Below are positions 36,162 to 40,036 of a DNA stretch of 64,000 nucleotides, piece by piece (position 1 is the first letter of the stretch; every line of letters starts with the position of its first letter). A program made the translations under genes and the position numbers. The DNA is taken from the NCBI RefSeq assembly GCF_004216565.1, contig NZ_SGWV01000007.1, positions 806,001 to 870,000 on the forward strand. Direction: 5' to 3'. This DNA comes from Sphaerotilus mobilis (lineage in GTDB: Bacteria; Pseudomonadota; Gammaproteobacteria; Burkholderiales; Burkholderiaceae_C). Under the pieces are notes generated by a model. The model searched no databases and was not told where the DNA came from. It saw nothing but the letters and a program-made list of their open reading frames with translations.

Positions 36162-37250
36162 TCAGGGCTGGCGCAGCGCGACCTTCGTGTCGTCGGCCTT
36201 CACCGGGACTGCCGTGGCCGACACCGATGCGGCCGGCGCCGCCGGTGTCGCCGCGCCCTTGCTCTGAAGCTCCGGGAAGTCCTTGGCCATCGGCGCGCCG
36301 TACAGGGGCTTGTGGGCACCCAAGTGGCAGGTTGCGCAGTTGACCTTGGCGACGTCGCCGGTGGGACCGTGGCGGTGGGCCGGGAAGGTGTCGGTCAGCG
36401 GCACCATGAACTCGCGGTTGAGGCTGCGCGCCATGCGGATGCCCTGCCAGGCGGTGAGGCGCGGCGGCGAGCTGTTCTCCCACGATCCGAAGGCACGCGT
36501 GTTGTGGCACTGGGTGCAGTTCACGCCCAGCGCGCTGGACATGTGCACCATCAGCCCATAGGTCCATTCGGCCTGCTTGGTCGACTGGCGGTTGGCGCCC
36601 GGCAAGGCCTGCTCACCCTGCACCCGGATCGGCTCGGCATCGAGCAGGAAGGGCGTGTAGGGATCAACCGGCAGGGACGTCAGACCGACCGTGGTGGCCG
36701 GCGCGTTCTGCCCGGCGCGGTCACCGGCGAAGGCGTTTGCACGCGGCTGCGGCGGCGGCTTGAACCAGACCTCCTGGGGCACGTTCTGGCCACGGTGGCA
36801 GGTGTAGCAGGTCACCCCGGTGGCACCCACGTGGCTGTTCCAGTCGGCGTTGATGGTCTGCGTCATCTGCAGCATGCGACGCGCGACGACCTTGGTGTAG
36901 AGCTTGTCGTCGGCGAAGTTCTGCGGGTCGTGGCAGTAGACGCAGCCCTGCTGCGGTGCGACCCAGGCGGTCATCGCGGCCATCGTGCGGGTGAACTGCG
37001 CGACGCTGACGTCGCCCAGCACCTTCACGTTCTGGAACACGTCGCGTGCCTTCGGGCCGTCGGTCGGCGCCGCCGGCAAGGCCTCGGGTGCCGCGTTCAA
37101 GCTGGCCTGCTGGGCCAGCGTGCGCGGGTTGTAGACCTGTTCCATGCCGGTGCCGCGGTAGCCGCGCTGCACCGTGTCGACCGGCGGACGCTCGCATCCG
37201 GCGAGCAGCGTGAGCCCGATCAGGGACACGCCAAGGCTGAGCAGCTTCAT
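36162..37250 (-). CDS. pufC: PufC, tetrahaem cytochrome subunit of the photosynthetic reaction centre
   Basis: 362 residues with a lipoprotein signal (lipobox LAGC, Cys19 lipidated) and four haem sites: CVYCH (103-107), CYTCH (148-152), CTQCH (245-249) and CATCH (305-309). It sits on the periplasmic face of the reaction centre and re-reduces the special pair with electrons from soluble cytochromes or HiPIP. It is the last gene of the bchCXYZ-puf superoperon, and its start ATG overlaps the stop of a 73-residue ORF, which in turn overlaps pufM. Confidence 0.96.
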   Translation of the reverse strand: MKLLSLGVSLIGLTLLAGCERPPVDTVQRGYRGTGMEQVYNPRTLAQQASLNAAPEALPAAPTDGPKARDVFQNVKVLGDVSVAQFTRTMAAMTAWVAPQQGCVYCHDPQNFADDKLYTKVVARRMLQMTQTINADWNSHVGATGVTCYTCHRGQNVPQEVWFKPPPQPRANAFAGDRAGQNAPATTVGLTSLPVDPYTPFLLDAEPIRVQGEQALPGANRQSTKQAEWTYGLMVHMSSALGVNCTQCHNTRAFGSWENSSPPRLTAWQGIRMARSLNREFMVPLTDTFPAHRHGPTGDVAKVNCATCHLGAHKPLYGAPMAKDFPELQSKGAATPAAPAASVSATAVPVKADDTKVALRQP

Positions 37251-37468
37251 GCGTGCGCTCCCTGAAGGTGAACGGCGTGGGCGGGACGGTCTGCGGCGGG
37301 GTGCCGGGACCAGCCCTCGTGGTCATCCAGGCTGGCCACGCTGGCCAGCATCCAGGCCTGCAGCACCTCGGCGGGCTGCGGCGTGTGGGCCAGCATGGCC
37401 TGCTGGCAGGCCGGGCCGGCAAGGCCTTGCATCAACAGCCGGCCGAGCGTGGCGATGGCGGCGCTCAT
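37247..37468 (-). CDS. orf73, small protein between pufM and pufC
   Basis: 73 residues ([14 protein letters not shown]... ending HLQGAHA), no membrane helix, no Cys pair, moderately helical. I do not recognise it. Its ATG overlaps the pufM TGA and its TGA overlaps the pufC ATG, both as ATGA, so the frame is locked into the operon at both ends and ribosomes would pass through it to reach pufC. It could be an assembly helper for PufC or the reaction centre, or merely a translated spacer. Confidence 0.65.
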
Positions 37469-38442
37469 GGCGTCACCCCACCCATCAGCGCCGGGTCGGC
37501 CACCGCCGGGAAGACGGCGGGGTAGACCGGTGCGACGCCATGCTTGACGGCCCACAGATACCAGTTGTCGACCACGGTGCCAGTCAGCAGGATGCCGATG
37601 CCGCCGCACAGCGGGCACAACACGGCGAACCACCAGGCCCAGCGGTGGATGGACTCCATCGTGGCGTTGAAGCCCATGGTCCAGCGCCAGAACAGGGCCG
37701 CCCGCTCGCTGGCCGTGCCGCGGTCGGTGATCTGCTCGATCTCACGCTCGCCACCGTAGCGGCTGACCGCCAGGATGGTCGCCCCGTGCATCGCGAACAG
37801 CAGCGTCGACCCGTACAGGAAGGCGATGCTGAGCATGTGGAAGGGGTTGTAGAACAGGTTGCCGTAGCGCAGCGAGAAGGCCGCCGTCCAGTCCAGGTGC
37901 GGGAACAGCCCGAACGGCACCGCCTCGCCCCAGCTGCCCATCAGCACCGGGCGGATGAAGCCCAGCACCAGGTAGAGCCAGATGGCCGCCGCAAAGGCCC
38001 AGGCCACATGTGTGCCCATGCCGAGCTTGCGGGCACGCCGGTACATGCGGGCCCACCACAGCAAGATGGCAGCGGTCAGGAAGAAGCCCGCCAGCAGCCA
38101 CCAGCCACCCTGGTTGAGCGGCGGCAGCTTCAGGCCATAGCCAGGCGGCGGCGGCTCCAGCGCCAGCCAGGGCAGCTGACGCACGAACTGCACCGGGTCC
38201 CAGCCGACCGAGGCCCACATGTTCAGGCCGATGATCTCCAGCGCGATGAAGCCGCACAGCAGCGAGCAGATGCCCAGCCAGCCGAGGTAGATCGGGCCGA
38301 TCTGCGCATCGCCGATGCGACCCAGCAGATGGATGTGCGTGGTGTCGCGGATGCGCTCGTGTTCGTCGCGACCCAGCGACACGCCGGGGTAGGACGGCGC
38401 CGTGACCTGCACGCTCGTGAAGAGGTTTTGATATTCAGCCAT
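37465..38442 (-). CDS. pufM: PufM, reaction centre M subunit
   Basis: 325 residues with five transmembrane helices. Family segments are plain: [16 protein letters not shown] at the start, [48 protein letters not shown] (His ligand of bacteriochlorophyll) and the [18 protein letters not shown] segment (His ligand of the iron). With PufL it binds the pigments and quinones of the purple bacterial reaction centre. It begins 9 bases after pufL and ends in an ATGA overlap with orf73. Confidence 0.97.
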
Positions 38443-38451
38443 GACCGTGCC

Positions 38452-39276
38452 TCACTTCCAGACCGGAAGGTTCAACCACCAGCTCCACCACTCGGGCCAG
38501 CCGCGTGTCCAGAAGGGCCCGCTGATGACGATGCAGACCGCGCTCCAGAAGCCCGCCGAGAGGGCCAGGAACAGACCCAGGCGGTGGATGCCCAGGGTGC
38601 CGATCGAATAGCCGATCGTGTCGCGGAAGAAGGTGTTCTCGTGCTCGGCCGTCTTGACCACCTCGCCGCGCGCCGGATTGGTCGACGACAGGATCAGCGA
38701 GCCGTGCAGGCTCAGCGCGAAGGTGGTGGCAAAGAAGAAGCTCACCGCCAGCATGTGCGCCGGGTTGTAGTGGAAGTGCAGGTACTGGTAGCCCGTGTTC
38801 GAGACCCAGTCCAGGTGGCTCATGATCCCGTAGGGGAAGCCGTGACCCCAGGCGCCCATCAGCAGCGGGCGGATCACCACCAGCGTGACATAGGCCAGGA
38901 TCGCCACCGAGAAGGCAAAGGGCACGTGCAGGCCGATGCCGAGCTTGCGGCAGATCTCGACCTCGCGCAGGGCCCAGGACACGAAGGCACCGATGGCGCA
39001 GACGGTGATGAGCTGCCACAGCCCGCCTTCCATCAGCGGTGCCAGGCCCAGCCCGTATTTCAGATCCGGTGGCGCGATGCTGATCTGCCACAGGTTCCAG
39101 GTTCCGCCTTGGGACGCGCCCCAGACGATCAACAGCGTGCCGACCAGCGCGAAGAACGCACTGGTGACGCCAAAGAATCCCACGTAGAACGGTCCGACCC
39201 AGAAGTCGAACAGGTCGCCCCCGAGCAGGGTGCCCCCGCGCACGCGGTACTTTCTCTCGAAGTTCAGCATGGACAT
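38452..39276 (-). CDS. pufL: PufL, reaction centre L subunit
   Basis: 274 residues from ATG 39276 ([15 protein letters not shown]), which aligns with known PufL N-termini and has GGGGGTGG upstream; a GTG at 39285 is an alternative. Five transmembrane helices, with [61 protein letters not shown] and [19 protein letters not shown] holding the pigment- and iron-binding histidines. The L/M heterodimer is the photochemical core in the intracytoplasmic membrane. Confidence 0.97.
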
Positions 39277-39409
39277 GCTTGCCACCCCCGCGAGGCGCCC
39301 CGGATCAATTCCGTGCGTCCGTCGTCTTGTCGTTCGGACAAAGGGGCGCGCCAGGTCGACAGGTCATCCAGCCCAAGGCTGTCTGCCACCGTGACCGGCG
39401 CGCCGCGAA

Positions 39410-39435: not shown

Positions 39436-39618
39436 CTACTTGGGTGCAGCAGCCGGCATCGACGAGTTCTGGCTCACCGCGGTCTGCGGTCCATCGAGCC
39501 AGTTGAACTTGTTGGTACTGAGCAGCACGAAGTGAATCACCAGTGCCAGCACGAACAAGAAAGCGAACAAAGCGACCAGCGCACGGCGCGGGTCGAACAG
39601 CAGCCAGATTCTCCACAT
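39436..39618 (-). CDS. pufA: PufA, LH1 alpha polypeptide
   Basis: 60 residues. [15 protein letters not shown] at the N-terminus and [19 protein letters not shown], with His29 as bacteriochlorophyll ligand, are diagnostic for LH1 alpha. One membrane helix. A strong ribosome site (AGGAGAAGAG) lies just before the ATG. An Ala/Pro/Ser tail follows the helix. Unusually, the gene is separated from pufB by another small ORF. Confidence 0.97.
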
Positions 39619-39629
39619 GCTCTCTTCTC

Positions 39630-39857
39630 CTAGTTGAGGTGCGACAGGAAGGTATAGACACCCGCCCGGACACCCTTGATCAGCGATTTCTCGCTCTCTG
39701 CGCCGGGGAACCAGCTGCGCCAGCGGACAAACAACAGCTGCGCGGCACAGGCCACACAGAACACGACCACGAAGCTCAGGAGGAACAAGGCCTCGTTGGC
39801 GACGCTGTCGTGCAAGGTGAGTCCCGACGGGGACAGGGTGTTGGTCTGCTGGGTCAT
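39630..39857 (-). CDS. orf75, LH1-beta-like single-helix protein without pigment histidines
   Basis: 75 residues with one membrane helix (about 23-45). A good ribosome site (GAAGGAA) precedes ATG 39857. Residues 11-50 align without gaps to PufB residues 10-49: SGLT start, F and SF in the helix, and W-R-x-W at the end (WRSWF versus WRPWL), 13 of 40 identical. Both conserved histidines are absent: His21 is Glu22 and the ligand His39 is Gln40. A 25-residue C-terminal extension ([10 protein letters not shown]...FLSHLN) is not found in PufB. It cannot bind bacteriochlorophyll in the usual way, so a structural or PufX-like role in the RC-LH1 ring is plausible. Known puf operons have pufB directly before pufA. 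Confidence 0.75.
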
Positions 39858-39886
39858 GACGGTTCCTTCAGCGCGTGTTCAAAGAC

Positions 39887-40036
39887 TCAAAGCCAGGGAC
39901 GCCACATCCAGACCAGCACATGGGCCACGACGGCAATCGCCGTGAAGCCGATGAAGCTGGACATGAAGATGCCGTGGAATTCCCGGGCCTCGTTCTCGGT
40001 CAGCCCGGACAACGAGCCTTTCCTTTCCTCAGCCAT
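39887..40036 (-). CDS. pufB: PufB, LH1 beta polypeptide
   Basis: 49 residues, too short for many ORF callers. The sequence runs [22 protein letters not shown], followed by one membrane helix with the ligand His39 in VVAHVLVW and the terminal WMWRPWL. The upstream His21 is also present. GAGGAGAG precedes the ATG. First gene of the puf part of the superoperon, 105 bases after bchZ. No pufQ is seen. Confidence 0.97.

Follow-up and report, generated by a model that had tools for sequence, protein, structure and literature searches.

A conserved gene between pufB and pufA of Burkholderiales encodes an LH1 beta relative without the bacteriochlorophyll-ligand histidine

Results

A small gene between pufB and pufA

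The stretch of Sphaerotilus mobilis DNA analysed here (64,000 nucleotides, hereafter the window) carries a puf operon on its minus strand, with the genes in the order pufB, ORFX, pufA, pufL, pufM, and a cytochrome gene that we take to be pufC (Table 1). ORFX had originally been predicted as a 75-residue reading frame with a ribosome-binding site of its own, and its ATG start codon and the AAGGA motif upstream confirm this. The stop codon of ORFX lies 11 nt ahead of the pufA start and overlaps the pufA ribosome site TAGGAG; a gap of 10-14 nt between the two genes was found in 103 of 107 loci.

Table 1. Features of the puf locus, given as positions of the window.
Feature	Position	Strand	Remarks
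pufB, LH1 beta	39887..40036	minus	49 aa, short form ending in WRPWL, both His kept; NCBIfam pufB E 8e-27
ORFX ribosome-binding site, AAGGA	39864..39868	minus	upstream regions of other loci also viewed
ORFX	39630..39857	minus	75 aa, ATG start; His-less LH1-beta-like protein
ORFX codons 45-75 and stop	39630..39725	minus	W-R-x-W and conserved C-terminal tail
pufA, LH1 alpha	39436..39618	minus	60 aa
pufL, reaction centre L	38452..39285	minus	
pufM, reaction centre M	37465..38442	minus	assigned by position and sequence; second, weaker hit when this genome was searched with PufL
pufC (presumed), reaction centre cytochrome	36162..37250	minus	four CxxCH motifs in the translation

Known puf operons were initially believed to have no reading frame at this place, and a search of related operons was set as a check. 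The belief proved wrong on two counts: homologues were found in 86 of the 102 Burkholderiales puf operons that could be read, and the gene is already in print. Judged by position, ORFX is the ORF2 of Rubrivivax gelatinosus (in strain IM 151 the orthologue has 74 aa; L098:3977-4201) and the ORF74 of Roseateles (depolymerans), which share its place upstream of pufA. A paper of 2025 gives ORF2 as an ORF of unknown function, reports that it was tested as the source of pufA2 and rejected, and aligns it with PufA and PufA2, remarking on the missing His29; section 8 of that paper describes no comparison of ORF2 with PufB (PMC12817894). Among open-licence PMC papers we found no account of the gene as a beta relative, and the available portions of PMC12817894, PMC5725709, PMC10037100, PMC9640540, PMC7806223, PMC3176799, and PMC5374385 do not describe it as one; an older note of the likeness may exist.

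ORFX belongs with the LH1 beta polypeptides

A direct BLASTP comparison aligned ORFX with the PufB of the window without gaps, with 14 of 41 residues identical (E 4e-7, for a single-pair comparison), which bears out the ungapped alignment with 13 of 40 identities first made by eye. The observed ungapped score was attained by none of 5000 segment-preserving shuffles. As had been proposed, both histidines of PufB are replaced, His39 aligning with Gln40 of ORFX and His21 with Glu22.

Profile comparison, which had been named beforehand as a check, also puts ORFX with LH1 beta. Using hhalign, ORFX matched the tailed form of LH1 beta at E 1.7e-24 over 72 columns, with the tail covered, and the short form at E 1.8e-11. 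The controls for ORFX gave 0.01-0.56 (PufL windows and reversed profiles) and 0.0036 (PufA and true PufQ alike). Among all control pairs of that run the lowest E, for PufA with a PufL window, was 0.0015, and we therefore treat values near 0.001 as noise. A relationship of ORFX to PufA or PufA2 was rejected, the match to PufA being at noise level and a link with PufA2 having been dismissed in print (PMC12817894). The ORFX profile was built from alignment A1, comprising 21 of 30 ORFX proteins picked by eye, with near-duplicates and L016 (miscalled start) omitted; the rows of alignments A2-A4 (11, 14, and 11) were likewise chosen by eye.

Searched against the PDB, the ORFX profile drew 49 matches with E 10 or lower; light-harvesting antenna chains, most of them named beta, fill the first 40 places. 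In the top match (8z81_B, E 8e-16) the alignment continues past W-R-x-W into the tail; a chain matching the profile along its entire length was not among the matches up to E 10. At the same threshold, the NCBIfam pufB model was matched by 11 of the 21 ORFX members (best 1.9e-10) and PF00556 by 7 of the 21 (best 4.4e-6); the window ORFX sequence taken alone matched neither of these two models.

The predicted C-terminal extension is real, comprising 25 residues past W-R-x-W-F, but it is no novelty of ORFX. The match at 1.7e-24 spans it, and the tail is common to the tailed LH1 betas, for example chain B of PDB 8z81 (75 aa) and the PufB proteins of L118, L182, and L186. These betas resemble ORFX in having a single helix, the motif W-R-x-W-(L/F)-P-G, a homologous tail, and a place in the puf operon. 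They differ in keeping the bacteriochlorophyll-ligand histidine and in occurring without ORFX (28 of 28 operons), whereas ORFX lacks the histidine in 84 of 85 orthologues and accompanies a short beta.

To place ORFX within the family, 93 beta-like proteins were put into a tree (75 columns, mostly weak support), which included 29 of the 85 ORFX rows. ORFX, the PufQ-like proteins encoded upstream of pufB, and all betas each formed one branch, with SH-aLRT values of 88, 93, and 91, none starred; a topology uniting ORFX with the tailed betas was not rejected (AU p 0.135). ORFX would accordingly be of a single origin if this weakly supported branch is correct. From the proposal of a duplicated beta, kinship with LH1 beta stands, on the profiles and on BLASTP, and a recent local copy of this PufB is not favoured, since the ORFX rows form a separate branch. 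Given that ORFX, the PufQ-like proteins, and many betas all have the tail, a tailed ancestor followed by loss of the tail from the short betas would be the simplest reading of these sequences.

The ligand is lost while the tail is constrained

The histidine of LH1 beta is the ligand of the bacteriochlorophyll magnesium. At the equivalent position 40, Gln is found in 64 of 85 ORFX orthologues and His in one, and at the level of sequence the predicted loss of the ligand is thereby borne out for the family as a whole. The place of the second, N-terminal histidine (His21 of PufB) is occupied by His in 2 of 85. The single ORFX with His at the ligand position appears to be that of L173 (G092), which is encoded next to a normal PufB and might still bind pigment. 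As a separate observation, ORFX is kept in a divergent group of betaproteobacterial puf operons (L169-L174, L242, L247, L249), in which PufB starts with N-P-S-G-L and PufA is distant from the rest.

Conservation is high in the region that follows the membrane helix. W46, R47, and W49 are present in 98%, 96%, and 91% of the 85 orthologues, and W46, R47, P51, G52, A53, E54, V63, V67, Y68, and S72 each occur in at least 95%. The automatic choice of start codons was passed by 85 of 86 ORFX rows and by 85 of 86 PufB rows. Over the 85 orthologues the median pairwise dN/dS of ORFX was 0.45 overall, 0.54 for codons 23-44, and 0.26 for codons 45-75, while codons 1-22 yielded no value; PufB and PufA gave medians of 0.24 and 0.29. 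These values are rough because the median dS is about 1.1. They place the constraint on the ORFX tail about equal to that on PufB.

AlphaFold2, run with 21 sequences, modelled ORFX as a helix at residues 14-41, a turn, and a second helix at 59-74, the first of these being the single membrane helix. Its confidence is middling (mean pLDDT 68, pTM 0.46), and a Foldseek search with the model found nothing in the PDB up to E 10. Residues 58-73 are amphipathic, with a mean moment of 0.313 against 0.192 for shuffled sequences (sd 0.010). We conclude that ORFX is a conserved, selected relative of LH1 beta that has lost the bacteriochlorophyll-ligand histidine and has kept a single membrane helix, the W-R-x-W motif, and an amphipathic C-terminal tail.

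LH1 beta has its N-terminus inside and its C-terminal end in the periplasm. On the N side of the ORFX helix the mean net charge over orthologues is -0.35, compared with +0.76 on the C side, which is the more positive of the two in 50 of 85 orthologues. Under the positive-inside rule, this bias weakly favours a cytoplasmic tail, against a beta-like topology.

ORFX, tailed PufB, and PufQ-like genes do not co-occur in the Burkholderiales sampled

Among 399 genomes of the same family, PufL was detected in 63 and an ORFX-like match in 61, all of them within those 63. Seven of the 61 matches are the tailed PufB itself, so that ORFX is present in 54 of the 63 PufL-bearing genomes. The two PufL-bearing genomes without such a match are G115, in which a PufQ-like gene lies upstream of a short pufB, and G374, which lacks a readable pufB. 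An order-level sample, with PufL in 46 of 399 genomes, contributed 40 new readable operons. Loci without a readable pufB were L142 (the first locus of G148), L175 (G374), and L200 (G449); G575, whose PufL is broken into two parts lying at contig ends, was left out.

The 102 readable Burkholderiales operons fall into three classes: 86 combine a short PufB with ORFX, 12 have a tailed PufB, its histidine kept, without ORFX, and 4 have a short PufB with a PufQ-like gene upstream. No other combination of ORFX, tailed PufB, and PufQ-like gene occurred among the 102. Within the order as sampled, ORFX is found only beside a short PufB, and it sits between pufB and pufA, the place where it was searched, in every one of its 86 operons. 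When 8 of the 12 tailed-beta genomes were searched as a whole with the PufQ-like profile, only the tailed PufB itself appeared below E 0.2.

Wider samples at the level of class (PufL in 7 of 369 genomes) and phylum (31 of 398) together provided 32 more operons, none with ORFX; in this sample ORFX is thus seen in Burkholderiales only. Those 32 operons include 16 with a tailed beta, 23 with PufQ or a PufQ-like gene (one assignment, L208 at 17 bits, being weak), and 12 with both. Twelve of the 16 tailed betas are thus accompanied by an upstream PufQ-like gene, so that outside Burkholderiales the tail is no substitute for that gene. Over all samples, none of the 28 operons with a tailed beta contained ORFX, and in 0 of 134 operons did ORFX occur beside a PufQ-like gene.

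Both states of the tail can be found within single genera, namely g100 (G201 tailed, G396 with ORFX) and g170 (three tailed, five with ORFX). The best PufL tree, with 69 rows of which 66 are those Burkholderiales of the 102 that have a full PufL, places six changes of tail state among Burkholderiales (6-7 in bootstrap trees). For pairs on its starred branches, ORFX changes in the direction opposite to the tail in 1.9 of 2 cases on average. The mutual exclusion, exceptionless in the sample, is nevertheless not statistically secured, because only 2 of the 6 switches are required once the tree is reduced to its strongly supported branches. The 69-row tree was used instead of an earlier quick one (97 rows), which was poorly resolved and joined long branches.

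The nearest ORFX among the best 80 of 218 relatives listed is that of Leptothrix discophora (87%). Within the genus of the window, G058, G170, G248, G315, and G373 gave neither PufL nor an ORFX match, and phototrophy in this genus looks patchy.

ORFX has antenna-like codon usage

In a codon score contrasting antenna genes with bchZ, ORFX exceeded bchZ in 107 of 107 loci and pufL in 106 of 107, and it fell under both pufB and pufA in 52 of 107. These loci are the ones of L003-L112 with all five genes, and up to 30 of them may be second copies of a genome. When pufL served as the low reference, ORFX scored above its own pufL in 39 of 42 ORFX operons, compared to only 8 of 25 for PufQ and PufQ-like genes (25 of the 27 operons with such a gene were taken). 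The codon usage of ORFX is antenna-like and not reaction-centre-like; the pufB-ORFX-pufA stretch has a lower GC3 (0.73-0.76) than bchZ (0.86), to which part of this signal could be due.

Published data on Roseateles depolymerans concern what is, by position, the same gene. The main 1-kb pufBA transcript is reported to include ORF74 along with pufB and pufA, and in a sigma-factor mutant ORF74 dropped to 2.34%, compared to 0.71% for pufA and 1.09% for pufB (PMC10037100). With the locus number RS05155, which falls between pufB (RS05150) and pufA (RS05160), it was among the three most changed loci (PMC10037100).

Discussion

Kinship with LH1 beta, absence of the ligand, and alternation with the beta tail point towards the photosynthetic core, of which ORFX may be an unrecognised part or helper. 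Our preferred reading, to which we give even chances, is that ORFX is a beta-like accessory without pigment which serves the RC-LH1 core or its assembly and supplies the tail in trans. According to this proposal, ORFX would be translated at an antenna-like level along with pufB and pufA, would insert like a beta chain with its N-terminus inside and its tail in the periplasm, and would be placed in or against the LH1 ring without a bacteriochlorophyll of its own. There it could provide in trans what the C-terminal tail does in tailed betas, most likely a role in building or shaping the RC-LH1 core, and it might either stay in the finished ring or act during assembly only. For the beta of Rps. 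palustris, 13 residues at the C-terminus are unresolved, with the missing regions ascribed to cleavage (PMC7806223), and a tail on beta may therefore be absent from the finished ring. In the PDB copy the top PufL hit scored 533 bits; the PufL of the window scored 634, and the other full-length PufLs in the family sample ranged from 503 to 616. These scores indicate that this copy holds no near relative of the present core, though it could hold a distant betaproteobacterial one.

A more far-reaching version, which we put forward tentatively and judge to be possible, would be that the function of LH1 beta has been split in most phototrophic betaproteobacteria. A short beta would carry the pigment and ORFX, predicted to be pigment-free, would carry the tail needed for building or shaping the core, with ORFX and the PufQ-like proteins representing old pigment-free branches of the beta family. 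If this were true, PufQ itself would be an antenna-derived protein.

The PufQ-like proteins also raise the main rival explanation, not considered originally and in our view rather unlikely, in which ORFX is the betaproteobacterial counterpart of PufQ, that is, a small membrane regulator or assembly factor that has moved from upstream of pufB into the pufB-pufA gap. In Rhodobacter, PufQ directs porphyrin from haem to bacteriochlorophyll via ferrochelatase, and it is not present in all purple bacteria (PMC5725709). ORFX resembles PufQ (PF05398) and the PufQ-like proteins in its size, its one helix, and its conserved C-terminal segment; its profile matches that of the PufQ-like proteins at E 4.7e-14, and the latter match true PufQ at 7.8e-5, about twenty times under the lowest control of the run. 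ORFX and the PufQ-like proteins also share one side of the branch that separates them from all betas (SH-aLRT 91, not starred), they never co-occur, and four Burkholderiales operons have the PufQ-like gene in place of ORFX. However, ORFX itself matches true PufQ at noise level only, and PF05398 was matched by 0 of the 21 ORFX members. The genes moreover differ in position and in codon usage, which is pufL-like in PufQ and PufQ-like genes, and the 12 tailed-beta Burkholderiales operons have neither gene nearby. Were ORFX a PufQ counterpart after all, this would bear on control of the haem/bacteriochlorophyll branch in those purple bacteria that do without PufQ (PMC5725709).

Small PufQ-like ORFs of other purple bacteria lie upstream of pufB in L205, L209, L213, L214, L216, L225, L228, L236, L178-L180, and L147. 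In hhalign they match tailed LH1 beta at E 7.5e-18 to 1.3e-16 over two runs, and thus more strongly than they match true PufQ; the two matches together suggest kinship between the PufQ group and LH1 beta. A search of 26 genomes with PF05398 gave nothing above the cut-off, and a scan of seven PufQ-like ORFs with the PufQ Pfam model gave one weak match (E 0.021). Because PF05398 stays under its cut-off even at loci where PufQ-like genes lie upstream of pufB, it is too narrow to judge them.

We think it improbable that ORFX opens the ring in the manner of PufX, as was first suggested, with one copy per ring taking the place of a beta and the resulting gap serving quinone exchange or dimer formation. 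A beta-like chain without bacteriochlorophyll might be expected to break the pigment ring, and the conservation and operon place of ORFX would suit such a role. PufX, protein W, protein U, and gamma are small extra membrane polypeptides of RC-LH1, as ORFX might be (PMC9640540, PMC7806223), but they are the products of different genes, and the PDB search with the ORFX profile yielded none of them up to E 10. PF11511 is likewise absent from the 14 families matched by the 21 ORFX members at E up to 10, and pufX directly follows pufM (PMC9640540), which ORFX does not. Judging by its antenna-like codon usage, ORFX would be made in more than one copy per reaction centre, and the operon includes pufC, while the cytochrome-bearing purple-bacterial cores named in PMC9640540 have closed rings. 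A PufX-like role thus has no support from sequence or gene position. Finally, that the frame is a translational spacer which couples pufB to pufA and sets the beta:alpha ratio, the protein hardly mattering, is very improbable: its close spacing to pufA and its overlap with the pufA ribosome site would fit, but its amino acids are under purifying selection, in codons 45-75 about as strong as in PufB, and 12 operons manage without it where beta has a tail.

Most Burkholderiales puf operons (86 of 102) carry this predicted pigment-free beta relative, which the literature, in the portions available, lists as an ORF without an assigned role. If ORFX is a subunit of the core, current pictures of these betaproteobacterial photosystems miss a part. 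The exclusion among beta tail, ORFX, and PufQ-like protein provides a testable rule, for which genera g100 and g170 offer natural comparison pairs.

The window contains a further small reading frame, encoding 73 aa (37247-37468, minus strand), which overlaps the end of pufM and reaches pufC. At E 1e-3 it was matched in 1 of 110 loci, that of Leptothrix discophora (L033), 30 of the loci (L003-L032) being too short to judge; its position is that of ORF77 of Roseateles.
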